Assembly (NCBI GenBank): GCA_020725525.1
Contig: DYEX01000059.1
Span: 1 to 44,443 of the forward strand
DNA: 44,443 nt
From: Desulfovirgula sp.
Lineage (GTDB): Bacteria; Bacillota; Desulfotomaculia; Desulfotomaculales; Desulfovirgulaceae
Direction: 5' to 3'
Numbering within the stretch: position 1 is the first letter of the stretch; every line of letters begins with the position of its first letter. Of the stretch, positions 7,325-36,986 are shown piece by piece. The notes beneath the pieces were generated by a model. That model was not told the DNA's origin, ran no database searches, and worked only from the letters and a program-made list of their open reading frames with translations. The position numbers and the translations under genes are program-made.

Positions 7325-8039
7325 GCGCGAACCACCTCTTTCTCAACACCGAAAAAACGGAATTCCCCGGCGCTCTCAGTTCTTTCAGGCCCAGCACCGG
7401 CATGAGCTTCCTCGCCAGGCGGCCGTCCGCCACGGCAGGCGCTTTGAGTTCCGGGAGAACGGCTGCAAGGGGGAGCCTGGACCCCAGCGTTTCCCTGAAG
7501 AGCCACATCAGCCTCCGCGGCACGCGGTTCAGCACCAGCGCCGACCGGCCGGGGAAGATGACCTCCCGCACCAGGGCGTAGTCCGCCCAGATGTAGGTGC
7601 GCCTGATCCCTTCCTCACCCCTGTCCCCGGGCACGACCACCAGCACCAGGTCGGCCTGCCGGGCGGCGTCCACGGAAGAAGGGGACAGCCTCCCGGCGGT
7701 GTCCGCAACGACCAGGTCGTACTCCCTGCAGGCCCCGGCCAGGAGGTTCAGCAGCGGCTGCCCGGCCACCATCTCGTCTTCCTCCGGGAAGCCGCCGGGG
7801 AGCACGTCGAAGCCCAGCCCCGACGGTGAGGCCAGGGAGGAGAGCGCGGCCGGCGACCGCGCCGCGGCCACCACGCCGCCGCCCTTCTCCATGTCGAAGA
7901 GCGCCCGGAAGGAACCGGGAGAGAAGTCCAGCTCGACCGCCAGGGATTTTTTCCCGGCCAGGGCCGCGGCCCGGCAGAGCGCCAGCGCCGTCATGGTCTT
8001 GCCCGCCTTCCCCACGGGGCTCATTACCACCGCCAGCAC
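7311..8039 (-). CDS. MinD/ParA-like P-loop ATPase of the Tad cluster
   Basis: 242 residues from GTG at 8039, four bases after the cpaB-like stop. The start MLAVVMSPVGKAGKTMTALA contains a deviant Walker A (GKAGKT) with the extra Lys typical of the MinD/ParA/SIMIBI family. Further family features are AVELDFSPGSF (Walker A') and YDLVVADTAGRLSPSSVDAA (Walker B region), then DLVLVVVPGD. In Tad systems such proteins (TadZ/CpaE) position the assembly machine. This is one of four related ATPases in the cluster and the shortest, having no N-terminal receiver-like domain. Confidence 0.8.
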   Translation of the reverse strand: MLAVVMSPVGKAGKTMTALALCRAAALAGKKSLAVELDFSPGSFRALFDMEKGGGVVAAARSPAALSSLASPSGLGFDVLPGGFPEEDEMVAGQPLLNLLAGACREYDLVVADTAGRLSPSSVDAARQADLVLVVVPGDRGEEGIRRTYIWADYALVREVIFPGRSALVLNRVPRRLMWLFRETLGSRLPLAAVLPELKAPAVADGRLARKLMPVLGLKELRAPGNSVFSVLRKRWFARGLA

Positions 8040-8040
8040 C

Positions 8041-8640
8041 CTACATACCTCCCCTGATCAGGAGCCTGAAGTGGCCGTCCTTCACCCACGGGGCGGCCCG
8101 CACCACCGACTGCTCGTCGCCGTAGAGCAGCGCCTCGGCCTTTGCTTCCCCGGCGTCCGATTTGTTCTGCACCACGCTGGCCACGCGGAAAACGCCGGCA
8201 ACTTCGCCCGGGCTGCCCGCGCCCGGGCAGGTGACGACGGCCACCAGGTCGTTCGGTTTGAGCGACCCGGCTTCCGCCGGACCCAGCGGGACGAAGAAGC
8301 CGGCCGCTCCGGACGGTATCTGGGACACCTTCCGGTCCGTCAGGCACGCCCCGGTGATCAGGTCGCCGGGAAGGCGGGCGACGCTCACGCGCTTGCCCTT
8401 GAGTTCGTCGAGAGAGGTGACCGCCCCGTCGGGCACCAGCCGCCGGGGCAGTTCCACGAGGCCGGCGTTTTTGGCCGTAACTTCCGCTCCCGGCGGGATG
8501 ATTTCCTTCGCGGCGGCCACCTTGACCGTCCCGGCGCTCATCTTGAGCACCGCGAACGCCCCGCAGAAGACGAGCAGCGCCGCCACCGCGGCGAGCTTGA
8601 ACGCTCCGGAAAAACCTTTCTTCTTCTCCACCTTTTCCAC
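8041..8640 (-). CDS. cpaB: CpaB/RcpC-like protein with SAF domain
   Basis: 199 residues from GTG at 8640, adjacent to the previous stop (TGAGTG). One N-terminal membrane helix (FKLAAVAALLVFCGAFAVLK) is followed by a SAF domain: VAAAKEIIPPGAEVTAKNAG, LVELPRRLVPDGAVTSLDEL, KGKRVSVARLPGDLITGACL. The C-terminus (residues ~105-199) resembles the CpaB-C region. In Gram-negatives CpaB works with the outer-membrane secretin; here, in a putative monoderm, it may bind peptidoglycan or guide the pilus through the wall. Its place between the MinD-like ATPases and TadA is typical of tad loci. Confidence 0.85.
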   Translation of the reverse strand: MEKVEKKKGFSGAFKLAAVAALLVFCGAFAVLKMSAGTVKVAAAKEIIPPGAEVTAKNAGLVELPRRLVPDGAVTSLDELKGKRVSVARLPGDLITGACLTDRKVSQIPSGAAGFFVPLGPAEAGSLKPNDLVAVVTCPGAGSPGEVAGVFRVASVVQNKSDAGEAKAEALLYGDEQSVVRAAPWVKDGHFRLLIRGGM

Positions 8641-9588
8641 TCAGCCGACCCTCCGTTTCGATAAAAGTCCGGCGAAAAGCCCCCGTTTCGGCTTTTCGGT
8701 AAACACGTAGTCATCCCCGCAGAGGTATTTCAGCACCCGGAGCACCCCGGCGTCGAATCCCCGGGATCTCATACCCGGAACGACGGCCGCGCACGGGAAC
8801 GGCAGGACGTCGTCCCCGAGGGCGACCTTATCCGCCGCGTTGAAGACCAGGGCGACCTTCCCCGGCGGGAAGCCCTTGTCCAGGGCTGCCAGCCGCCCCA
8901 GGCTAACCCCGTCCGCCCGGGAGACCACCAGCACCCGGTCGAACTCCTCCGCCAGGGAGGGGGAGAAGGGCCGCTCGGCCAGCGCCAGGCCGGTTCCTCT
9001 CAGCACGGCGGGAGAGGTGCCCGCGGGCAGGACCTTCACGCCGCCCGGCACGGTTATCCGGTCGTCCGTGCAGACGCTGACCGGTACGCCGGGTACCGCT
9101 CTGGCAAAAGCGGCGGCCAGGGCGGCCATCAGGAAGGTCTTCCCGCAGCCCCCGCGCAGGCCCGTCACCGCGGTCACGGGCAGGAGCAACGGGCGCACGG
9201 GGTTTCTTTTCAGTTCTTCCTGCAGGGCTTCGTTTTCGATCCCGCGGGCCGCGTCCAGTTCCACCGGTTCACGTCTCCGGAAGGCCGCCGCGTTTTCAAC
9301 GACCGGGTCCACGTCTTCCGGCGCGAGCGGGGTCACGCCGGCAGCTTCAAGCCGTGCCCACTGCTCCAGGGAAGCACTCCCGGTAACCAGGAAGAACCGT
9401 TTGTCCCTGTACAGGGACGCCGAGCGGCAGGCAAATTCTTCCCCGGCTTCCCCGGGGAAGGTGACCAGGACCAGGGCGGGACCGTCCACTTCTCTGAGCA
9501 GGCGCGCGCTCTCACCCGGCGTGGAGGCGGCGGCAAAGGGCACCACGGCAGTGCCCTCGACCGGCGGCCCGAAAAGCAGTACCCTCAC
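8641..9588 (-). CDS. TadZ/CpaE-like ATPase, second-type (N-terminal domain plus P-loop)
   Basis: About 315 residues from GTG at 9588, preferred over a longer form because it follows the upstream stop without overlap. The N-terminal ~120 residues (VRVLLFGPPVEGTAVVPFAA..., LVLVTFPGEAGEEF, RFFLVTGSASLEQWARLEAA) look like a degenerate receiver-type alpha/beta domain. A P-loop domain follows, with TGLRGGCGKTFL near residue 180. The later region carries EEFDRVLVVSRADGVSL and KVALVFNAADKVA, similar to the MinD switch segments. It is a probable Tad localisation ATPase. Confidence 0.7.
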   Translation of the reverse strand: MRVLLFGPPVEGTAVVPFAAASTPGESARLLREVDGPALVLVTFPGEAGEEFACRSASLYRDKRFFLVTGSASLEQWARLEAAGVTPLAPEDVDPVVENAAAFRRREPVELDAARGIENEALQEELKRNPVRPLLLPVTAVTGLRGGCGKTFLMAALAAAFARAVPGVPVSVCTDDRITVPGGVKVLPAGTSPAVLRGTGLALAERPFSPSLAEEFDRVLVVSRADGVSLGRLAALDKGFPPGKVALVFNAADKVALGDDVLPFPCAAVVPGMRSRGFDAGVLRVLKYLCGDDYVFTEKPKRGLFAGLLSKRRVG

Positions 9589-21427: not shown

Positions 21428-22285
21428 CTATGCAAATAAATCATAAACAGATTCTGGTATTGAAATCTGGTGACTAAAAATAACCACTTCTTGCCCCTTA
21501 TAACATTTGTTAGCACTATAATTTAAATTATAAATCATCTGTCGATAATTATGATAGAGAGCTTTAATTTCATTAACATTATCATAAGTTATAACCCAAA
21601 ATTTATCTTCGACCTTAGTTATAAATTCAGCTATTCTTTTGTGATCATCATAATTATAGTAATTTAAATATAAATCCTTACCTTTATTAAAGTATGGAGG
21701 ATCAAGATAAATCAAAGTTTTATACGGGGTTGTTGGCAAAATGTCACTTAAAAAGTCCATGGCGTCTTTGTTTGCTAAATTTATCCTATCCTTATATAGT
21801 GCAATTCTTTCAATTCGTTTGATTAATTCAACCTTATTATACCGTGCGTCAATTTTCCATTTTCCATTTTGATTTATTCCGCCAATCACCCCCCCTTTAT
21901 TCAATATACCAGATCTATTAGTCCTGTTTAGAAAAAAAGCAGCAAAACCAAGGTCAATTGTTGACACATTATCTTGATTATAATAAATCAGTCTTTGTCT
22001 CTTCCATTCATCCATATTAACTGGAGTATCGTATATTTTCTTACATAATATTTCAGTTTCATTTAATACTGAAAACCAAAATGAATATATTGCCCTGTCA
22101 ATATCATTTATAAAAACTTTTATTACATATTCATTTATTAAAAGGTCAAGGGCCACTGAAGCACCACCACAATATGGTTCAATGTAATAACCATCACATA
22201 GCATGTTTGCTTCGCAAAGCAATTTAAAAAAACGACCTAGTTTCGCTTTGCCACCAGGATAACGTAATGGCGAATAGTATTGCAT
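21428..22285 (-). CDS. Dam-type (D12 class) adenine-N6 DNA methyltransferase, AT-rich
   Basis: 285 residues. SAM-binding motif I region is PLRYPGGKAKLGRFF and the FxGG-equivalent YIEPYCGGASVAL (residues 5-50). The catalytic motif IV YLDPPYFNKG lies at about residue 192. This is the D12 (alpha-class) family that includes Dam and DpnM and methylates adenine in short sites such as GATC; the actual site is not predictable. The gene is strikingly AT-rich against GC-rich surroundings and ends with FSHQISIPESVYDLFA. It lies 13 bases downstream of a ParB-like gene of the same composition, so the two probably arrived together as a module. Confidence 0.9.
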   Translation of the reverse strand: MQYYSPLRYPGGKAKLGRFFKLLCEANMLCDGYYIEPYCGGASVALDLLINEYVIKVFINDIDRAIYSFWFSVLNETEILCKKIYDTPVNMDEWKRQRLIYYNQDNVSTIDLGFAAFFLNRTNRSGILNKGGVIGGINQNGKWKIDARYNKVELIKRIERIALYKDRINLANKDAMDFLSDILPTTPYKTLIYLDPPYFNKGKDLYLNYYNYDDHKRIAEFITKVEDKFWVITYDNVNEIKALYHNYRQMIYNLNYSANKCYKGQEVVIFSHQISIPESVYDLFA

Positions 22286-25016: not shown

Positions 25017-25862
25017 TCAGCTATAGTTGCGAATAACCAACTCCGAAATCGGCCCGCGCTTATCAGCCCGGCAATTAATGGCTCTTTTTGCGTAAACCAC
25101 CTGTATGTCATAGTTCTTATAGAGCTCACGAATGAACGGCGTATCCGAGTTGCTTAACATGACAAGACAGCCCCTCCGGTCCAGCTCCCGAAACACTTCC
25201 GCCAAACGCCGCTGGTCGTCTTGCCCAAATGCATCGGGGGTATAGCTGGTGAAATTAGCTGTTTCCGAAAGCGGATGGTAGGGTGGGTCCAGGTACACGA
25301 AAGCTCCCGGATCGGTGCAGTCCAGGACCCGGCTGAAGTCGCCGCAGATTATCTCCGCCCTTTTTAAAGCCTCGCTTACCAGGCGGAGGTTCGGCTCATC
25401 CACTATTTTAGGGTTCTTGTAACGCCCGAATGGCACATTGTGCTTACCCCGGCTGTTCACACGCCACAACCCGTTGTAGCCCGTCTTGTTCAGGTAGAGG
25501 AATCTTGAGGCCCGCTCCACGGGAGTCAGCTGACCGGGATCAAGGGCGCGGATACGGTAGTAATATTCCGCAGTATTTTCATGCCTCCTCAGATCCTGCA
25601 GGAGAACTTCCAGGTCGTCCCGCACGACCAGGTAGAAATTGATTAACTCATCATTGCTGTCGATCAGCACCGCCCTGGGGGGTAACAGGTGGAAGAAAAC
25701 CGCCCCGCCGCCGACAAAAGGCTCAGCGTAGAGGCCGTACTCTCTTTTGGGAAACAATGGTTCGAATTGAAGTATAAGCTGGGATTTCCCCCCTGCCCAC
25801 TTGACGGGGGGCCTGGGTTTTTCTTCCTTTATCTGAGCATGGTATGTCTCGTACAAAACCAT
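25017..25862 (-). CDS. Dam-type (D12 class) adenine-N6 DNA methyltransferase
   Basis: 281 residues. Motif I region VKWAGGKSQLILQF and YAEPFVGGGAVFFHLL (residues ~18-55), DSNDELINFYLVV, and motif IV YLDPPYHPLSE at about residue 187. These are the hallmarks of the Dam/DpnM group. It is GC-rich like most of the window, so it is not a recent duplicate of the AT-rich methylase at 21428, with which it shares only motif-level similarity. First gene of an operon with the PD-(D/E)XK-like nuclease and the tyrosine recombinase. A GC-poor leader with four 10-bp motif copies precedes it. Confidence 0.92.
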   Translation of the reverse strand: MVLYETYHAQIKEEKPRPPVKWAGGKSQLILQFEPLFPKREYGLYAEPFVGGGAVFFHLLPPRAVLIDSNDELINFYLVVRDDLEVLLQDLRRHENTAEYYYRIRALDPGQLTPVERASRFLYLNKTGYNGLWRVNSRGKHNVPFGRYKNPKIVDEPNLRLVSEALKRAEIICGDFSRVLDCTDPGAFVYLDPPYHPLSETANFTSYTPDAFGQDDQRRLAEVFRELDRRGCLVMLSNSDTPFIRELYKNYDIQVVYAKRAINCRADKRGPISELVIRNYS

Positions 25863-29865: not shown

Positions 29866-30105
29866 TCATTTACAGGCTGCTGGCGGTAAATCTTCACTGT
29901 ACAGAAACTCCGAAATTGTCAGGCCGAAGGCTTTTGCAATCTCCACCGCCTCGTCAATATCCGGTAAGAATTTACCGTTTTCCCAGTCTGAAATTGTCGT
30001 CTGTGGTTTACCAATCATCTGCCCGAGCTCTTGCTGTGACAGTTTTCTTTCTTTTCGCAGATAACGGAGCCTCGCCCCAAAGGTTTTTGCGTCCACTTCT
30101 TTCAC
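29866..30105 (-). CDS. XRE-family HTH regulator
   Basis: 79 residues from GTG at 30105; GTG at 30096 has better spacing to GGAGG. The protein is essentially one HTH_3 domain (FGARLRYLRKERKLSQQELG, QMIGKPQTTISDWENGKFLP, IAKAFGLTISEFL). It is divergent to the XRE gene at 30233, with three operator copies between them. Its promoter has an operator in the spacer, so it should be autoregulated, in the manner of a Cro/CI pair. Confidence 0.88.
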   Translation of the reverse strand: MKEVDAKTFGARLRYLRKERKLSQQELGQMIGKPQTTISDWENGKFLPDIDEAVEIAKAFGLTISEFLYSEDLPPAACK

Positions 30106-30119
30106 CTCCGCCTGCTTAT

Positions 30120-30148
30120 ATGGTAAACGGTATATCGTTTACTGTCAA
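30120..30148 (-). promoter_or_regulatory. Promoter of the 29866-30105 regulator with operator in the spacer
   Basis: Minus-strand TTGACA (30143-30148) and TACCAT (30120-30125) are separated by 17 bases. That spacer contains the palindrome GTAAACG-N6-CGTTTAC read on the plus strand (30123-30142). Confidence 0.65.
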
Positions 30149-30214
30149 TGGTATTTCGTTAGATGTCCTACAAAAATATGTTTTACAATATTTCTGGGAT
30201 AACGGATTTTCGTT
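30126..30214. promoter_or_regulatory. Three AACG-N6-CGTT operators between divergent XRE genes
   Basis: AACGGTATATCGTT (30126-30139), AATGGTATTTCGTT (30147-30160) and AACGGATTTTCGTT (30201-30214). The first two centres are 21 bp apart, i.e. two helical turns; the third is 54 bp further and lies close to the rightward start. A TACAAT box at 30184-30189 may serve the rightward gene. This is the layout of a lambda-like switch. Confidence 0.72.
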
Positions 30215-30232
30215 AAGAAGGGTATGTTTTAC

Positions 30233-30565
30233 ATGGATATTGCCGACCGTATTGTACAGCTGCGCAAAGAGAAGAATTACAGCACCACAAAACTGGCCAA
30301 ACTTGCCGGAATAGCGCAATCCACGCTTCGTGAAATCGAGTTGGGCAAGACATCGCCGACCTGGGACACGATCCTCAAGCTTTGCAGGGCGCTTGGTGTT
30401 TCACCCCGTGAATTGCTCGACTTTGAACCGGATGACCGGGGCGATTTGCCCCACGACTTTAAACGTTTCCTGGAAGTTGCCCGTCTTCTCACCCCCCGCC
30501 AGCGTGAGTTGATCCTGGAAGTTATGGAAGAATGGGCGGAATATAACAGGATTAAAGCTAAATAA
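30233..30565 (+). CDS. XRE-family HTH regulator with C-terminal helical domain
   Basis: 110 residues from ATG at 30233, chosen over ATG 30224 because of spacing to AAGAAGGG. HTH_3 is at residues ~4-60 (IVQLRKEKNYSTTKLAKLAG, IAQSTLREIELGKTSPTWDT). A C-terminal helical segment (LPHDFKRFLEVARLLTPRQR, ELILEVMEEWAEY) is shared in pattern with the regulator at 31510, so the two are paralogues. Probably the repressor of the divergent pair. Confidence 0.88.
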   Translation: MDIADRIVQLRKEKNYSTTKLAKLAGIAQSTLREIELGKTSPTWDTILKLCRALGVSPRELLDFEPDDRGDLPHDFKRFLEVARLLTPRQRELILEVMEEWAEYNRIKAK

Positions 30566-31133: not shown

Positions 31134-31373
31134 TCACTCTCCCGCTGCCTTTGCCTGCTGCTCGTCCAGCAATTCGGCTACGGTTACCCCCAGGGCGGCG
31201 GCAATTCGAGATAGTACATCAATGCTCGGATTTGTCTTGGTACCACTTTCTAACTCACAGAGGTAAGCTGCCGTAATTTTGCTGTCACTTGCCAGCTTTA
31301 CTTGGCTTACGCCTTTTAACTCCCTTAGTGTTTTTATCTTAAAGCTGATACCATTTTTTAACACGCGGTTCAC
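31134..31373 (-). CDS. XRE-family HTH regulator (second divergent pair)
   Basis: 79 residues from a TTG or nearby start at 31373. HTH_3 core: FKIKTLRELKGVSQVKLASD, SKITAAYLCELESGTKTNPS, VLSRIAAALGVTVAELLDEQ. It has its own near-consensus promoter (31387-31415) with a TTAGC-N5-GCTAA operator inside, and diverges from the XRE gene at 31510. Confidence 0.88.
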   Translation of the reverse strand: MNRVLKNGISFKIKTLRELKGVSQVKLASDSKITAAYLCELESGTKTNPSIDVLSRIAAALGVTVAELLDEQQAKAAGE

Positions 31374-31386
31374 TCCCTTTGTTATA

Positions 31387-31415
31387 ATTTTAGCCTACAG
31401 CTAAGTTCTAGTCAA
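31387..31415 (-). promoter_or_regulatory. Promoter of the 31134-31373 regulator with operator in the spacer
   Basis: Minus-strand TTGACT (31410-31415), a 17-base spacer and TAAAAT (31387-31392). The spacer holds most of TTAGC-CTACA-GCTAA (31390-31404). Confidence 0.75.
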
Positions 31416-31491
31416 TAATAATTTAACCATTAGCTAATAAATGCTCTTTGCTTTCTGAGTCGTTGAGTTGATAAAATTAGCTCATAGCTAA
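31390..31491. promoter_or_regulatory. TTAGC/GCTAA operators between divergent XRE genes
   Basis: TTAGC-CTACA-GCTAA (31390-31404), ATTAGCTAAT (31429-31438, arms fused) and TTAGC-TCATA-GCTAA (31477-31491). The last copy directly follows a TTGCTT-N18-TAAAAT rightward promoter (31448-31477). The outer copies have identical 5-base arms and spacing, different from the operator type of the neighbouring pair. Confidence 0.72.
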
Positions 31492-31509
31492 CGAAGGGAA
31501 TATATTCTT

Positions 31510-31833
31510 ATGGATATAGGCCGAAGAATCCGGGAGATTAGAAAAGCAAACAATCAAAAATTACTTAACATATCACAACAAACGGGACTTTCACAGCCGT
31601 TCATCAGTGAGATAGAACGCGGAATTAAAGTCCCATCTATTGAAACCCTCGAAAAAATCTGCTCCGCCCTGGGCATCACCCTGGCCGAGTTTTTCGCCGA
31701 CCAGGCCCCGGAACTGCCGCCGGACATCCGCCAGATGATAGATGTAGCCCGAAAACTTACCCCTTTGCAACGCGAGTTGATCATCTCCGTCATGAAGGAA
31801 ATGGCGAAAGATAATCAAACGGAAGGGGAATAA
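31510..31833 (+). CDS. XRE-family HTH regulator, paralogue of the 30233 gene
   Basis: 107 residues. HTH_3 core IREIRKANNQKLLNISQQTG, LSQPFISEIERGIKVPSIET, then a C-terminal helical tail (LPPDIRQMIDVARKLTPLQR, ELIISVMKEMAKDNQ) matching the pattern of the protein at 30233. It is divergent to the XRE gene at 31134 and three bases upstream of a coiled-coil protein, so it likely heads a two-gene operon. Confidence 0.9.
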   Translation: MDIGRRIREIRKANNQKLLNISQQTGLSQPFISEIERGIKVPSIETLEKICSALGITLAEFFADQAPELPPDIRQMIDVARKLTPLQRELIISVMKEMAKDNQTEGE

Positions 31834-31836
31834 TCC

Positions 31837-32202
31837 ATGTCAGAGCAACTGCTGAAAGAAATTCTCGGTGAACTGAAGGCCCTGAATCAGCATGCCGGCA
31901 ATATAGAGCAACGCGTCGGCAACATGGAGCAGCGCATCGGGGACCTGGAACAGGGCCAACAGCAACTAGAAAAGGAACTTAAGGCCGCTATCAAAAACGT
32001 GGATAACAAGGTGGACAAGTTGAAACTTCGTCTCGAAAACGAAGTCATTGACAAGGTGCGTGCCCTCTTTGACGGTTTCGCACTGAGGGGCGACCAGATC
32101 GAGCGGCTGCAAAAACACCTCGATGAACGCCTGGACAGCATCGAAACAGATACCCGTTATCTCGTTGCCAGGGTCGCCAGGCTGGAGAAGCTGGCGAAGT
32201 AG
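31837..32202 (+). CDS. Coiled-coil protein in a regulator operon
   Basis: 121 residues. Almost the whole protein is heptad-like (IEQRVGNMEQRIGDLEQGQQ, VDNKVDKLKLRLENEVIDKV, LDERLDSIETDTRYLVARVA). No membrane segment or catalytic motif. Starts three bases after the upstream XRE stop. It probably oligomerises and may bridge regulators or DNA. Similar small coiled-coil proteins are common cargo in Firmicute mobile elements. Confidence 0.8.
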   Translation: MSEQLLKEILGELKALNQHAGNIEQRVGNMEQRIGDLEQGQQQLEKELKAAIKNVDNKVDKLKLRLENEVIDKVRALFDGFALRGDQIERLQKHLDERLDSIETDTRYLVARVARLEKLAK

Positions 32203-32212
32203 GTAGTCATGT

Positions 32213-32437
32213 TCACCTTTTGTTCCCCTGCGGCGCAGGTTGTTCAGGCTCCACAGCCAGCAATTCACTTGCGGAAATTCCGAAGAATTTTTCCAGACGC
32301 TGGGCCACCTCCCAGGAGGGGTTTCGGCGACCAGTTTCTATGTGGCTATATGTCTTTTTGCTAATACCAATTGCCAAGCTTACTTGTTCTTGGGTTAGCC
32401 CCAATTTCTTTCGACTGTTCAATAGGGCTTTCCTCAT
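32213..32437 (-). CDS. XRE-family HTH regulator (third divergent pair)
   Basis: 74 residues. HTH core ALLNSRKKLGLTQEQVSLAI, GISKKTYSHIETGRRNPSWE, RLEKFFGISASELLAVEPEQ. Its promoter is a perfect TTGACA-N17-TATAAT with the operator palindrome occupying the whole spacer. It diverges from the XRE gene at 32523. Confidence 0.88.
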   Translation of the reverse strand: MRKALLNSRKKLGLTQEQVSLAIGISKKTYSHIETGRRNPSWEVAQRLEKFFGISASELLAVEPEQPAPQGNKR

Positions 32438-32453
32438 GGTTGCACACTACCTT

Positions 32454-32510
32454 GTCTCCTATAAGGAGACTCAGTAATTTCATTATAGTCTCCTATAAGG
32501 AGACTGTCAA
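32454..32510 (-). promoter_or_regulatory. Perfect consensus promoter with palindromic operators (two GTCTCCT-ATA-AGGAGAC copies)
   Basis: Minus-strand TTGACA (32505-32510) and TATAAT (32482-32487) match consensus completely. Their 17-base spacer is exactly the palindrome GTCTCCTATAAGGAGAC (32488-32504). A second identical copy lies at 32454-32470, centre 34 bp away. A rightward TTGTCT-N17-TAATTT candidate (32452-32480) overlaps the second copy. Confidence 0.88.
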
Positions 32511-32522
32511 GGATGTTTCTCG

Positions 32523-32750
32523 ATGTTCTCTAAAGAGGTTTTTGGCCAGAGATTGCGCCAACTACGACAAGAAAGTAAGCTATCACTGGAGCAACTCGGT
32601 AAGAAAATCGGAGTGGCTAAACAAACTGTTGGCCACTGGGAGACCGGTTACAGGTTACCTCCCTTAGACGTAGCGGTGGTTCTCGCCGACTTCTTCGACG
32701 TATCCTTGGACTACCTCGTGGGCCGCTCCGACGACCCGCGCAGGCACTGA
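32523..32750 (+). CDS. XRE-family HTH regulator
   Basis: 75 residues. HTH core FGQRLRQLRQESKLSLEQLG, KKIGVAKQTVGHWETGYRLP, VLADFFDVSLDYLVGRSDDP. This ending (DVSLDYLVGRSDDP) matches the pattern in the ImmR-like protein at 35189. It diverges from the 32213 gene. The 3' end overlaps a small convergent gene by 40 bases. Confidence 0.88.
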   Translation: MFSKEVFGQRLRQLRQESKLSLEQLGKKIGVAKQTVGHWETGYRLPPLDVAVVLADFFDVSLDYLVGRSDDPRRH

Positions 32751-32908
32751 TCTTCCTGGCGTTTCTCCTCCTGTATCGAACCACTGGAAACGTTCCTGGC
32801 ATACTGGAGCATCTTCAGGAATGCAGCCATACCCTCTTCGTACCTGCGCTCCCAGCCGGGAACAGGAACAAACTTAACACTTATCACGTATCTAGGCGGC
32901 TTTCCCAA
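32711..32908 (-). CDS. Small basic protein, convergent with an XRE gene
   Basis: 65 residues from TTG at 32908, with a strong GGGGAGGGA site. Sequence opens GKPPRYVISVKFVPVPGWER and continues RYEEGMAAFLKMLQYARNVS, with a charged tail. A TTGACC-N17-TAGACT promoter lies just upstream. No family is recognised. The promoter and ribosome site make it more than a chance frame despite the 40-base antisense overlap. Confidence 0.6.
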   Translation of the reverse strand: MGKPPRYVISVKFVPVPGWERRYEEGMAAFLKMLQYARNVSSGSIQEEKRQEDQCLRGSSERPTR

Positions 32909-32940
32909 AACTATCCCTCCCCGGCCTGCTGGCCTTATTA

Positions 32941-33056
32941 TTAGTCTAGATCAATATCAATTAAAGGTCAAGCCTCTAATTTATTTTACCCCCTGTACTT
33001 TCTTTGTTTTTTGGGTTAAACTAATATAGAGCTTATTCTTAATCTAGACCAATTTC
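32941..33056. promoter_or_regulatory. Two dre-like GntR operator sites
   Basis: TTAGTCTAGATCAATATC (32941-32958) and TTAATCTAGACCAATTTC (33039-33056) match at 15 of 18 positions. Both contain the TCTAGA core, and the second has the TCTAGACCAAT arm typical of sites bound by HutC/NagR/DasR-type GntR regulators. They lie 98 bp apart, flanking a candidate rightward promoter (TTGGGT-N17-TATTCT, 33011-33039). Confidence 0.65.
32943..32971 (-). promoter_or_regulatory. Promoter of the small gene at 32711, overlapped by a dre-like site
   Basis: Minus-strand TTGACC (32966-32971), 17-base spacer, TAGACT (32943-32948). The dre-like site 1 (32941-32958) covers the -10 box and half of the spacer, so the GntR protein may repress this gene too. 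Confidence 0.6.
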
Positions 33057-33079
33057 TATATGTCAGGAGGTGAGATGTT

Positions 33080-33781
33080 GTGGACCGCTTTTCTACCTGG
33101 GAAGACCTGAAGGGTGTAAAAATTGCTTTCCTGCCCGTGGGGTCCCTGGAGCAGCACGGGCCGCACCTTCCCCTGGGTACCGACGGGATTATCGCGGAGG
33201 CGCTGGCCGGCAGGCTGGCCGATATTTTCGCACCGGCCTACCTGCTGCCGCTGCTACCCTTCTCCTCCTCTTTTGAACATGCCGGTTTTCCGGGAAGTGT
33301 GTCCCTCAAAGTGACGACCATTGCTTCAGTAATTTCCGACGTGGTAGAGTCCCTCGCCTTTTCCGGCATCGGGAAGCTTGTCATCGTCAGCGGCCACATG
33401 GGTAACCACCTCCTGAGAAACGTCGTCCAGGAATTGAACTATCCCCGCCCACGGGTGCTGCTGCTCCCATCCCGCCATCACTGGGAAAGGGCTTACCGGG
33501 CAGCCGGAATATCCTCGTCTCCTTCCCGGGACATGCATGCTGGTGAAGGCGAGACGTCCATTATCATGCATTTGTTTCCCGGGGCTGTACGCTCCCAGGA
33601 AATGAAGGATGTTGACCGGCCGGAACGGCAGCTTCTAGAAACTCTGGGTATGAGGGCTTATACCGAAACCGGAGCCATCGGCTTCCCTTCAAGAGCTTCT
33701 GCCGAAAAGGGAGCTATGCTCCTGAATGCCCTGGCGGAAGAAACAGCAAAAACGGTAAAGGAGTTTGTTGAAATTGGCTGA
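33080..33781 (+). CDS. Creatininase-family amidohydrolase
   Basis: 233 residues from GTG at 33080 (AGGAGGTGAG upstream). Signature VGSLEQHGPHLPLGTDGIIA (metal-binding Glu, His, Asp) lies near residues 21-40. LVIVSGHMGNH corresponds to the usual NGHGGN loop, and HAGEGETS contains the second Glu. The creatininase fold (also MftE-like) hydrolyses cyclic amides using divalent metals; the substrate is not predictable. In an operon with a GntR/UTRA regulator whose gene overlaps the 3' end. Confidence 0.9.
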   Translation: MDRFSTWEDLKGVKIAFLPVGSLEQHGPHLPLGTDGIIAEALAGRLADIFAPAYLLPLLPFSSSFEHAGFPGSVSLKVTTIASVISDVVESLAFSGIGKLVIVSGHMGNHLLRNVVQELNYPRPRVLLLPSRHHWERAYRAAGISSSPSRDMHAGEGETSIIMHLFPGAVRSQEMKDVDRPERQLLETLGMRAYTETGAIGFPSRASAEKGAMLLNALAEETAKTVKEFVEIG

Positions 33782-34505
33782 GCAATTCAGCTGGCAGGAA
33801 ATAGCTGTAATTCTGCGTGAAAGAATTCTTTCGGGTCAACTGAAACCGGGACAACCTTTTCCGACCAACAAAGAATTGATAAACGAATTCGGCGTCTATG
33901 TAAGCACCGTCCAGAACGCCGTAAACGCCCTCATAAGGGAAGGATTAGTCGTAACCTCCGGCCCCGGCAACAAGCGCCGCATCGTCAAGCCTTTGCTGGA
34001 GCGGTCGGTACGCCGGGGAGGTTTCCTGACCGAGTTCGGGCCACGGGCCAGGCTGGAAATCCTGGAGTTAAAGATCGTCCGCAGTTCCAAAAAACTGCCG
34101 GCAGCAGTTCTTAAAGAGATGGAGCCGCCTGTTCTAAGGTATTACACCCGCCAGTGGCGGGACGAAATTCCCGTTGCCCTGTCGGATGCGTATATTCCGG
34201 GGGTTGTCCCGCTCAAAGAGCTGAAGTCACTAATTTCCGACCCCGGCACGGATTTATACCGGGCGATGGAGTCGCTGGGTATGAGAGCCGACACCTGTGA
34301 GGAATCGCTGATTGCCGGTGGGTCTACGCCGGAGGAACAACAGATCCTCAACGGTGCGCCTGTAGTGGTACGAATTACCCGGAAAGTTTATAATAAAGAC
34401 GGACGGTTGCTGGAACTGTGTTTTCTAACCAACCGGGCGGATTGCTACGAGTTTTTATACCGGTTCCCTTTTGAAGCTCAAGAAAATAATGATAAACTAA
34501 CATAA
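33765..34505 (+). CDS. GntR/HutC-family regulator with UTRA domain
   Basis: About 246 residues; TTG at 33765, 33768 or 33774 are possible, the last best spaced from AAAGGAG. An N-terminal winged HTH (ILRERILSGQLKPGQPFPTN, FGVYVSTVQNAVNALIREGL) is followed by a UTRA ligand domain (LEILELKIVRSSKKLPAAVL, LRYYTRQWRDEIPVALSDAY, EEQQILNGAPVVVRITRKVY). Overlaps the creatininase 3' end by 17 bases, so likely co-regulated with it. Two dre-like sites upstream of the operon fit autoregulation. Confidence 0.9.
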   Translation: MLKLAEQFSWQEIAVILRERILSGQLKPGQPFPTNKELINEFGVYVSTVQNAVNALIREGLVVTSGPGNKRRIVKPLLERSVRRGGFLTEFGPRARLEILELKIVRSSKKLPAAVLKEMEPPVLRYYTRQWRDEIPVALSDAYIPGVVPLKELKSLISDPGTDLYRAMESLGMRADTCEESLIAGGSTPEEQQILNGAPVVVRITRKVYNKDGRLLELCFLTNRADCYEFLYRFPFEAQENNDKLT

Positions 34506-34523
34506 AAGGAGGGTAATAATACC

Positions 34524-34730
34524 GTGCGATTACCTGTAACCCTTTACCCGGGTGAAGATGGTTTTATAGTTGCAGAATGTCCGGTTATACCAGGATGTAT
34601 CTCCCAGGGCAGAACAGAGGAAGAAGCCCTGGCAAATATCAAAGAAGCAATTGAACTTTGCCTTGAAGTCAGGAAGGAAGCTGGCTTGCCCTTAACGATA
34701 CCTCTCCGTGAAATAGAGGTGGCCATCTAA
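34524..34730 (+). CDS. hicB: HicB-like antitoxin (first module)
   Basis: 68 residues. HicB fold features: LPVTLYPGEDGFIVAECPVI, PGCISQGRTEEEALANIKEA, IELCLEVRKEAGLPL. The C-terminal DNA-binding domain is absent, as in short HicB variants. It sits one base before the hicA-like gene. Co-transcription with the toxin is expected. Confidence 0.88.
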   Translation: MRLPVTLYPGEDGFIVAECPVIPGCISQGRTEEEALANIKEAIELCLEVRKEAGLPLTIPLREIEVAI

Positions 34731-34731
34731 T

Positions 34732-34956
34732 ATGGCTTCCCTTCCTGTAGTTTCAGGTAGGCGTGCTGTTCGCGCTTTTGAAAAGGCCGGCTGGAAAATT
34801 GCCCGGCAAAGAGGCAGTCATATTATTATGGTTAAAGCAGGTATGCTGGCAACGCTATCAATCCCCAATCACAAAATTTTGGATCGTGGCCTGCTGCGTA
34901 GTTTGATTCGCAAGGCTGAAATGTCCGTTGATGAGTTTATCCAATTGTTGGATTAA
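34732..34956 (+). CDS. hicA: HicA-like toxin (first module)
   Basis: 74 residues. Features: LPVVSGRRAVRAFEKAGWKI, ARQRGSHIIMVKAGMLATLS (dsRBD-like fold with the catalytic His in GSHII), IPNHKILDRGLLRSLIRKAE. HicA is an mRNA-cleaving toxin neutralised by HicB. Here the order is antitoxin first, unlike the second module at 36338, where toxin comes first. Confidence 0.88.
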   Translation: MASLPVVSGRRAVRAFEKAGWKIARQRGSHIIMVKAGMLATLSIPNHKILDRGLLRSLIRKAEMSVDEFIQLLD

Positions 34957-35188: not shown

Positions 35189-35647
35189 ATGGAAAACAGT
35201 ACCAACCTTTTTCCGCAGCGTTTAAAAAACTTACGCAAGGCAAGAAATATTTACCAAAAGGAATTGGCAGCTGCAATTGGGGTTAAACCGGGAACTGTTG
35301 CCGCTTGGGAAGCAGGACATAGAGTACCCGAGTTGGGCCTTGCAACAAAACTAGCAGATTTTTTTAATGTCTCGGTTGACTATTTATTAGGACGCACCAA
35401 TGACCCCCGACCGGTGGATAAAATCATTTCTCCGGAATCTGACGTCAGAACGGAACGATCCCTCAAAGACAAAATCTTCGACCCCACCTACACCCCCACG
35501 GAAGTGGACCTGGAAGAACTTCTGGAGGTAGCAAACATCCGCTTCATGGGCGAACGCATGGCCCGGGAAGACAGGGAAAAGCTGCTTCAGATAGCAAAAA
35601 TAATCTGGGAAGAGCGCAGGAAAATCAAAGAACGAAAAGGCAAGTAA
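35189..35647 (+). CDS. ImmR-like XRE repressor
   Basis: 152 residues. An N-terminal HTH_3 domain (LKNLRKARNIYQKELAAAIG, VKPGTVAAWEAGHRVPELGL, FFNVSVDYLLGRTNDPRP) is followed by a ~70-residue C-terminal domain (VDLEELLEVANIRFMGERMA, REDREKLLQIAKIIWEERRK). The size and the ImmA-like metalloprotease gene downstream match the ImmR-ImmA pair of ICEBs1-type elements, in which the protease cleaves the repressor to switch the element on. Confidence 0.88.
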   Translation: MENSTNLFPQRLKNLRKARNIYQKELAAAIGVKPGTVAAWEAGHRVPELGLATKLADFFNVSVDYLLGRTNDPRPVDKIISPESDVRTERSLKDKIFDPTYTPTEVDLEELLEVANIRFMGERMAREDREKLLQIAKIIWEERRKIKERKGK

Positions 35648-35802
35648 CGGCCGCCGCGGCGTTTCCAGGGCGGCTGCTATTGTTTTTCTGCTTTTCTCGT
35701 CTTCGTTCGACAAATGTTTTAACCCTGCGGGTTCAGTTTTTGTGTATAATAAGAATTAATGGAACTTGTGTTCGCAATCTTGCTCCGGAAAGGTTGGGTG
35801 TT

Positions 35803-36237
35803 ATGATCTCTCCCGAGCGTAAAAAGGTGATCGCCAGCATTGAAAGGCTTGTAGCACGATTCAGGACGAGAAACCCTTTCCTCCTCGCATCGTACCTGGA
35901 CATGGAGGTAATAAAAAGGGAACTGCCGGATGGAATAGCGGGCCTGGTGACCGAATTATACGGGTCCGTGATGATAATACTGGATCCTTCCCTGCCGGAC
36001 TGCGAAGCCAGGTACATCGTTGCCCACGAGATATACCACCACCTGGACGAGCATCCGGACCTGCGCCTCCTGAAGCGCACTTTCTTTGGGGACAAGTACG
36101 AATACAGATCGGACTTATTCGCCGCCGCACTCCTGATCGACGAAATGCCTGAAGAGGGGGAAACAGACGTCAGCTTCGCCGCCAGACTGGATATACCGGT
36201 GCGGCTCGTCCGCCTCTGGTTTTTCCCGGCGGCGTGA
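35803..36237 (+). CDS. ImmA/IrrE-family metallopeptidase
   Basis: About 144 residues from ATG at 35803; a TTG-started extension is possible. The zinc motif HEIYHH (as AHEIYHHLDEHPD) is at about residue 75, followed by Glu/Asp-containing KYEYRSDLFAAALLID, giving the third ligand. N-terminus MISPERKKVIASIERLVARF. It lies about 150 bases downstream of the XRE repressor; a TATAAT box at 35745-35750 may give it a separate promoter. Its predicted role is cleavage of the ImmR-like repressor. Confidence 0.92.
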   Translation: MISPERKKVIASIERLVARFRTRNPFLLASYLDMEVIKRELPDGIAGLVTELYGSVMIILDPSLPDCEARYIVAHEIYHHLDEHPDLRLLKRTFFGDKYEYRSDLFAAALLIDEMPEEGETDVSFAARLDIPVRLVRLWFFPAA

Positions 36238-36337: not shown

Positions 36338-36583
36338 TTGGGCAAGCTGAAAAAGCTCCTGGAAAAGATTAAGCGCAACCCGAAAACCGTGAGGTTTGAT
36401 GAGCTGGACCTGGTGCTCCGCAGGGCGGGGTTTGAGCGCAGCCAACCGGGAGGCGGGTCCAGCCACTACGTTTACCGGAAAGGAAAACTGAAGCTGGTAG
36501 TCCCCTACCGGCAACCATACATCCTGGTTGCTTACATTAAAAGGGCAATCAAACTTCTAGAGGAGGCGCAGGAAGATGAATAA
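36338..36583 (+). CDS. hicA: HicA-like toxin (second module)
   Basis: 81 residues from TTG at 36338. Features: VRFDELDLVLRRAGFERSQP, GGGSSHYVYRKGKLKLVVPY (HicA His in SSHYV), ILVAYIKRAIKLLEEAQEDE. The gene overlaps the following hicB-like gene by eight bases. Toxin-first order is the classical hicAB arrangement. Confidence 0.85.
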   Translation: MGKLKKLLEKIKRNPKTVRFDELDLVLRRAGFERSQPGGGSSHYVYRKGKLKLVVPYRQPYILVAYIKRAIKLLEEAQEDE

Positions 36584-36986
36584 AGACCTGGAATATTACC
36601 TTCGCCTGCCTTACAAGGTGATGATCCACCCTTCTCCCGAGGGGGGCTATGTTGCGGAAGTGCCGGATCTCCCCGGCTGCCTCACCCAGGGCGAAACCCT
36701 GGAGGAACTTATGGAGATGGTCGAAGACGCTAAGCGCTGCTGGATTGCGGATGCCCTGGAAAAGAACGAAGAAGTCCCGGAACCGGTGGATGAGAGCTAT
36801 AGCGGGCGCATCCTGGTGCGCGCCCCGAAATCCCTGCATCGCATTCTAGCCGAAAAAGCGCGGGAGGAAGGGGTCAGCCTCAACCAGTACATCGTGTACC
36901 AGCTCTCCCGTGCAGTGAGTAAAACCTCCGAGACAAATAGAGGGATTATCACTTCACCTCACTGCGGGACAACTCAAGAGAGGTAA
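36576..36986 (+). CDS. hicB: HicB-like antitoxin with RHH-like C-terminal domain (second module)
   Basis: 136 residues. HicB fold at residues ~5-60 (LPYKVMIHPSPEGGYVAEVP, DLPGCLTQGETLEELMEMVE). The C-terminus contains RAPKSLHRILAEKAREEGVS and LNQYIVYQLSRAV, a ribbon-helix-helix/Arc-like segment typical of DNA-binding HicB. Unlike the first module it therefore carries its own operator-binding domain. Its 3' end converges with the replication-initiator-like gene, overlapping by 13 bases. Confidence 0.9.
   Translation: MNKDLEYYLRLPYKVMIHPSPEGGYVAEVPDLPGCLTQGETLEELMEMVEDAKRCWIADALEKNEEVPEPVDESYSGRILVRAPKSLHRILAEKAREEGVSLNQYIVYQLSRAVSKTSETNRGIITSPHCGTTQER

Follow-up and report, generated by a model that had tools for sequence, protein, structure and literature searches.

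Two short genes diverge from an intergenic region in which a consensus promoter carries a palindrome as its spacer. This raises the questions of which of the two encoded proteins reads the palindrome, what the arrangement controls and how protein and operator can stay matched when specificity changes. We analysed the locus in a 44,443 nt stretch of Desulfovirgula sp. DNA (contig DYEX01000059.1), referred to here as the window, and compared it with related loci in genomes and phages. It is quite likely that the two genes form a CI/Cro-type switch in miniature, carried by an ICE-like mobile element, and that the specificity of the switch is exchanged as a cassette.

Promoter of gene A and the two copies of its putative operator

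The promoter at 32482-32510 is located on the minus strand and drives gene A (32437-32213). It consists of TTGACA (32510-32505), a 17 bp spacer (32504-32488) and TATAAT (32487-32482). Direct reading and a promoter scan agree that all 12 hexamer positions match the consensus, which bears out the preliminary description of this DNA on this point and assigns the promoter to the minus strand. The scan revealed two promoter-like sites in the region 31800-33200, and this is the only one with 12/12 positions.

The spacer had been described as consisting entirely of an operator palindrome. An inverted repeat, GTCTCCT-N3-AGGAGAC, does fill the 17 bp exactly (putative operator 1, 32488-32504; plus-strand reading GTCTCCTATAAGGAGAC). 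Its 7 bp arms are perfect, but the 17-mer as a whole is an imperfect palindrome, since the 3 bp centre is non-symmetrical. The identical copy reported 34 bp away is present at 32454-32470 (putative operator 2), adjoining the probable ribosome-binding site of gene A. Both copies have the same strand reading, are 34 bp apart from start to start and form an 18/18 direct repeat when one flanking base is added. The second copy had been placed over an opposite promoter, which did not hold: no sigma-70-like promoter for gene B was scored on the plus strand in the consensus scan, and operator 2 sits in the early transcribed region of gene A. If the transcription start is taken by rule of thumb as 7 nt past the -10 element, it covers about +6 to +22 of the minus-strand transcript. 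The sequence TATAGT at 32484-32489 was considered by eye as a -10 element of gene B and was not adopted (no -35 element).

With up to three mismatches, the 17-mer gives four strand-matches in the window, which are its two sites counted on either strand, compared to an expectation of 0.06, and elsewhere in the 3.24 Mb genome only two places resemble it, with three mismatches each. A genome search with a looser, 12-base operator yielded an exact match at one further place and a single mismatch at seven others; these matches are attributed to chance, since the reversed control gave equal numbers (10 and 10 per strand). Among 113 genomes of the class, a 14-base operator was found in two, namely that of the window and G005.

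The location of operator 2 also bears on the idea that the palindromes act in RNA, with a hairpin of operator 2 in the A leader governing mRNA stability or translation. The leader is able to form a 7 bp hairpin next to the ribosome-binding site, but its fold is no better than that of shuffled sequences (z -0.85). Moreover, operator 1 is not transcribed with A and yet has the identical sequence, and the operators covary with the DNA-reading residues of the proteins (see below). We regard an action in RNA as highly improbable.

Genes A and B encode two small XRE proteins

The two genes both encode HTH_3 (XRE) proteins, and their start codons are 85 bp apart. Gene A (32213-32437, minus strand) codes for 74 amino acids, with the recognition helix at about residues 26-35 (SKKTYSHIET), and the C-terminal half of its product is conserved (NPSWEVAQRLEKFFG). 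Gene B (32523-32750, plus strand) codes for 75 amino acids that comprise a DNA-binding domain only; its recognition helix reads AKQTVGHWET, and the C-terminal part is conserved (LADFFDVSLDYLVGRSDDPRRH). The probable Shine-Dalgarno sequence of gene B, AAGG (32509-32512), overlaps by two bases with the opposite strand of the gene A -35 element. Five of the ten recognition helix residues are identical between the two proteins (K27, T29, H32, E34 and T35).

In the AlphaFold models, helix 3 comprises residues 27-35 in A (mean pLDDT 85.8) and 33-41 in B (mean pLDDT 91.2). A Foldseek search with the B model placed the operator-bound P22 c2 repressor (3jxb) at rank 5 (E 4.5e-4). With the A model it was found at rank 37 (E 0.023, rmsd 1.0), and no match of A reaches 0.001. 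B furthermore resembles the DNA-binding domain of ICEBs1 ImmR (7t8i, E 2.4e-7), and the fold of A is similar to those of C.AhdI and C.Csp231I. According to Pfam, the nine ORFs of 31134-34956 include no restriction or modification genes. Two ORFs that resemble DNA adenine methylases by eye are located at 21428-22285 and 25017-25862, 7-11 kb from the switch.

We call gene A Cro-like and gene B CI-like by position, because of gene arrangements in phages. Four annotated phages that contain a B-like gene were inspected, and three of them have the integrase on the B side (GBSV1, MCACPph1 and Likha). In two (GBSV1 and Likha), the gene diverging from the B-like gene is annotated as a regulator, and antirepressor genes lie further on; phage Emery has neither the integrase on the B side nor the regulator-antirepressor arrangement. 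Spacer-filling palindromes were also observed in Moorella phage MCACPph1 (L233, 2373) and Brevibacillus phage Emery (L234, 2460), in promoters pointing away from the B-like repressor gene.

Genomic setting

A convergent gene follows the 3′ end of gene A after 10 bp, thus A leads no operon. On the other side, about 330 bp past B and in the same orientation, are genes for a creatininase family protein (33080), a GntR/UTRA protein (33765) and HicB/HicA (34524/34732). The creatininase family gene (33080-33781) is 93-95% identical in G001, G004 and G005. Besides the HicB/HicA pair (34524-34956), a second HicA/HicB-like pair, recognised by eye, lies near the switch at 36338-36986.

The surroundings contain a VirB4/TraG-like gene (16429) as well as genes for a tyrosine recombinase (23712) and a serine recombinase (42723), which suggests that the switch sits in an integrative conjugative element. 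No ImmA metallopeptidase gene was found beside gene B, where the adjoining genes are the creatininase family and GntR/UTRA genes. At 35189-36237 an XRE gene is followed by a 185-aa ORF that looks by eye like an ImmA-type metallopeptidase but gave no match in Pfam at 1e-5. The window contains two more divergent XRE pairs, one at 29866-30565 with its own AACGGTATATCGTTT-like repeats and one at 31134-31833 with TTAGCT-N3-AGCTAA-like repeats, each in three copies. Unlike the 32213/32523 pair, the proteins of these two pairs are 95-100% identical in G004.

The locus might also be a decayed or captured phage switch without present function. There is no operon past A and no other close operator in the genome, and neither protein has the C-terminal domain found in typical phage repressors. 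However, the promoter and the operators conform fully to consensus, neither reading frame is interrupted, and another genome of the genus has the unit at 98% identity; we consider a loss of function quite unlikely.

Other divergent XRE pairs share the arrangement

Homologues of A were found in 61 of 113 genomes of the order at E 1e-6. Promoters near them have the identical design with other palindromes, such as GTTAAGTATTACTTAAC, GTTCGGAATATCCGAAC, GTGCAATGTAATTGCAC and AGGTACCATAAGTACCT and others. A wider search of the phylum matched 193 of 398 genomes at E 1e-9. This 398-genome search, a viral scan (80 loci kept), a contig scan (5 loci) and fetched stretches together provided 232 partly overlapping sequences, which contained 139 distinct divergent XRE pairs. 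The 42 pairs with gaps of 75-122 bp were analysed and the other 97 were left out. The contig scan was made with a narrow alignment and its five loci were among 19 pattern matches; a viral scan with the A alignment gave six pattern matches and no relatives. In a DNA search of 150 genomes with the 101 bp region, the only real match besides the window was in G005, the remainder being short matches with E 0.0066 or worse.

A promoter with at least 9 of 12 consensus positions is present on the A strand in 39 of the 42 pairs. The spacer contains an inverted repeat (net score at least 5) in 24 of these 39 scored promoters compared to 5.5% of shuffled spacers, a control in which only the chosen spacer was shuffled and the choice of the best promoter per region was not repeated. 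In these 24 pairs the best second copy is found 31-38 bp further on. No strong inverted repeat was detected in 15 of the 39 spacers; in some viral ones, a longer repeat extends past the spacer (by eye). Near-perfect spacer palindromes occur in 18 of 105 promoters within divergent XRE gaps and in 9 of the 277 promoters located elsewhere in these loci. Seven of the nine background cases are located directly upstream of a B-like gene, the divergent neighbour of which was missed by the XRE profile, so this contrast is, if anything, understated. The window's promoter had been regarded as an extreme example; it is instead one member of a family, since divergent XRE pairs of both genomes and phages show the arrangement with many different palindromes.

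Recognition helices are matched within pairs and covary with the operators

Cro recognition helices reportedly correlate with operator half-sites. The helix 3 columns compared here contact bases in the 434 and P22 repressors. We used 27 cluster representatives of the 42 pairs, with A and B swapped by hand in one of the 42 (L036). Helix 3 of A and B has an identity of 0.485 within pairs, compared to 0.234 between pairs (0/20,000 shuffles, z 10.3). Little excess was found for helix 1 (0.333 within, 0.303 between; 1176/20,000 shuffles), a small one for helix 2 (0.343 and 0.267; 18/20,000) and a small but consistent one for the C-terminal half (0.298 and 0.248; 0/20,000, z 4.6). The columns with the largest excess correspond to window residues 27 (0.59 within, 0.13 between), 28 (0.67 and 0.25), 26 (0.56 and 0.20) and 32 (0.41 and 0.09), followed by 41, 51 and 31. 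Judged by helix 3 alone, the true partner comes first in 16 of 27 cases if ties are counted and is strictly best in nine. The excess holds separately for the 17 genome representatives, the 10 viral ones and an 11-member tight-family subset of the 17 (0/20,000 each).

Operator similarity was then correlated with the identity of the contact columns for 25 operators, namely those of the 24 pairs with a spacer repeat and that of L034, which has no promoter under the scan rule and was added by hand. Correlations of r=0.44 for A and r=0.68 for B were obtained (0/5000 permutations each). After removal of C-terminal similarity they are 0.40 and 0.55 (0/5000). With one member per cluster (15), the correlation is kept for B (r=0.35, 0/5000) and weak for A (r=0.19, 274/5000). 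The C-terminal half of B follows the operators about as well as the contacts do (r=0.53, 0/5000 for the 25 operators; 0.38, 9/5000 for the representatives), and 0.27 (9/5000) is left after removing the contacts. For helix 1, values of 0.28 (A) and 0.24 (B) were found (6/5000 each).

Since the helix residues are matched and operator similarity follows these residues, A and B of a pair probably read one operator, like CI and Cro. The weak correlation of A among the 15 representatives would also fit a palindrome that is read by one protein alone, with either A as autorepressor or B as repressor and the other one a bystander or a reader of other sites. A precedent is phage TP901-1, for which CI and MOR are assigned different DNA motifs in the available text of the study (PMC7250872). 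A single reader is, however, difficult to reconcile with an A-B matching that is strongest in the contact helix, in the genome and viral subsets alike, with 25 operators that covary with the contact columns of both proteins and with the five residues shared by the window pair itself. We regard it as rather unlikely. The preliminary description had proposed a tight switch read by the two XRE proteins, and such a switch is well supported by sequence comparison, with its matched recognition helices, operator covariation and conserved anatomy.

The centre of the switch is replaced between related genomes

The switch is present in five of six genomes of the genus that were searched (the window's genome, G001, G002, G004 and G005), and its operators are of five types; the protein most similar to A in G003 has 45% identity. 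Comparison of the window with the congeneric G004 revealed a left flank that is 87% identical over 1008 bp, up to the 3′ part of B, and a right flank that is 91% identical over 1034 bp, starting from the 3′ half of A. The central part of about 360 bp finds no alignment in G004, which has an AGAAGT-type operator there. The putative exchangeable specificity cassette, replaced in G004, spans 32322-32680 with approximate boundaries and comprises the HTH half of B, both operators and the HTH half of A. At the protein level, the neighbouring XRE proteins 29866, 30224 and 31510 are 100% identical in both genomes and 31134 is 95% identical, compared to 69% for A and 54% for B.

The same picture was obtained for one of the three tandem switches of G001 and the switch of G002: among the matches listed, the left flank is 97% identical over 447 bp and the right flank 84% over 703 bp, and the centres differ. 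G005 contains the window's switch at 98% identity over 495 bp and, adjoining it, a second switch of the GTTAGT type, beyond which the B-side flank of the window follows (94% over 1020 bp; both among the matches listed). Adjacent to the switch, the DNA past the A gene of G005 and that past the B gene of G002 have no alignment with the window among the matches listed. Because each of the two is unaligned on one side, the slot is common on both sides only to the window, G004 and, as judged by gene content, G001. Other genomes than G004 thus contain two or three units in tandem. In G001 (L172), the three tandem units with three operator types are located at 7382-9399, between homologues of window genes 31837 and 33080, and the coiled-coil gene 31837 has a second copy in this tandem region.

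Alternatively, the replaced centre might have diverged by point mutation, with diversifying selection acting on the HTH halves. The C-terminal halves are under protein constraint as well, and the excess of identical four-fold-degenerate sites in them is modest: in A, 351/673 sites agree in the C-terminal compared to 112/298 in the N-terminal half, in B 109/199 compared to 15/62, counted over pooled pairs with C-terminal identity above 80% and N-terminal identity below 75%, which are selected and not independent. These sites thus favour C-terminal recombination only modestly. Point mutation does not readily account, however, for flanks that reach outside both genes and are 84-97% identical in two comparisons around a centre that is unalignable including its intergenic part. 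It is likewise at odds with the three neighbouring XRE proteins that are identical in the window and G004, and with the one genome that has the window's switch and another specificity in tandem. We consider point mutation unlikely as the source of the new centre. The comparisons suggest that related mobile elements exchange the entire recognition unit as a single cassette, and this may be how they change their immunity type.

Discussion

The switch itself is of a textbook kind. The lambda-type CI-Cro switch combines two divergent HTH proteins that have matched recognition helices with operators over the core promoter, and its Cro side has a strong promoter close to consensus. The switch of the window resembles the lambda, 434 and P22 systems in its divergent HTH pair, in a presumed operator over the core of a strong promoter and in its matched helices. 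In contrast to them, it has two operators instead of three, B has no C-terminal cooperativity or cleavage domain, the operator fills the spacer exactly and the boundaries of replacement lie inside both coding regions. The engineered promoter PLtetO-1 has a TetR operator filling the gap between the hexamers; the operator of the window occupies the same place, whereas PLtetO-1 is synthetic. With ICEBs1 ImmR-ImmA the locus shares the ICE-like setting and the resemblance of B to the ImmR DNA-binding domain, but B consists of this domain only, no ImmA-like gene is adjacent and the partner is a divergent Cro-like protein.

The anatomy of the switch and its conservation, the matching of the helices, the covariation of operators and helices and the centre replaced between conserved flanks are properties of the compared sequences themselves. 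The likely mechanism is that of a CI/Cro-type switch in which an operator occupies the promoter spacer. Either XRE protein, bound as a dimer to operator 1, would cover the DNA between -35 and -10 and thereby turn A off, and a dimer on operator 2, just past the transcription start, would add to this shut-off. Gene B, the CI/ImmR-like partner, is probably expressed weakly or conditionally, since it has no recognisable consensus promoter. With matched recognition helices on one operator, A and B would control each other as well as themselves, which would probably result in two stable states. The unit of about 360 bp, comprising the DNA-reading half of B, the operators and that of A, could be swapped by recombination via the conserved 3′ ends of the genes or, alternatively, be added in tandem. 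As the DNA-reading halves and the operators would move as one, the type of repression, and presumably of immunity, would change while the match between protein and operator is kept.

Repressor-operator coevolution is known from cluster A mycobacteriophages; to our knowledge, their immunity involves no paired small proteins. The evolution of immunity specificities has been studied in these phages (PMC6550527), and the available text of a further report describes monomeric repressors and many stoperators spread across the genome (PMC9283540). Compact Gram-positive divergent switches with an operator overlapping the lytic promoter are described in the available texts for lactococcal phage TP901-1 and S. 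aureus phage 13 (PMC7250872, PMC8516035). According to the former, OM sites of its own are assigned to MOR, which acts as part of a CI:MOR complex (PMC7250872), whereas the helices of the window pair match each other and probably read one operator. In the literature, judged by title and start of abstract, we found no paper describing such an exchange, none on this element among the papers listed and nothing relevant on palindromic spacer operators in divergent XRE/Cro-like switches, which does not prove that any of these is unpublished.

Less expected is that matched protein halves and operators are exchanged as a block. It is unusual for the first protein, the operators and the second protein to change specificity jointly, as they appear to do here in a single short block flanked by constant ends; five genomes of one genus have five operator types, and as many as three units occur in tandem. 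Tentatively, we propose that ICE-like elements hold a dedicated slot for interchangeable immunity cassettes of about 360 bp, each with two matched DNA-reading halves and their operators, which would be swapped or stacked in tandem via the invariant ends of the genes and might allow the elements to escape the repressors of resident relatives and to gain exclusion types; the paired sets of helices and operators might then constitute a natural library for the XRE recognition code. The 25 matched operator/helix sets (15 clusters) are material for testing rules of DNA recognition, and the locus offers a direct route to test how mobile elements gain new immunity types.
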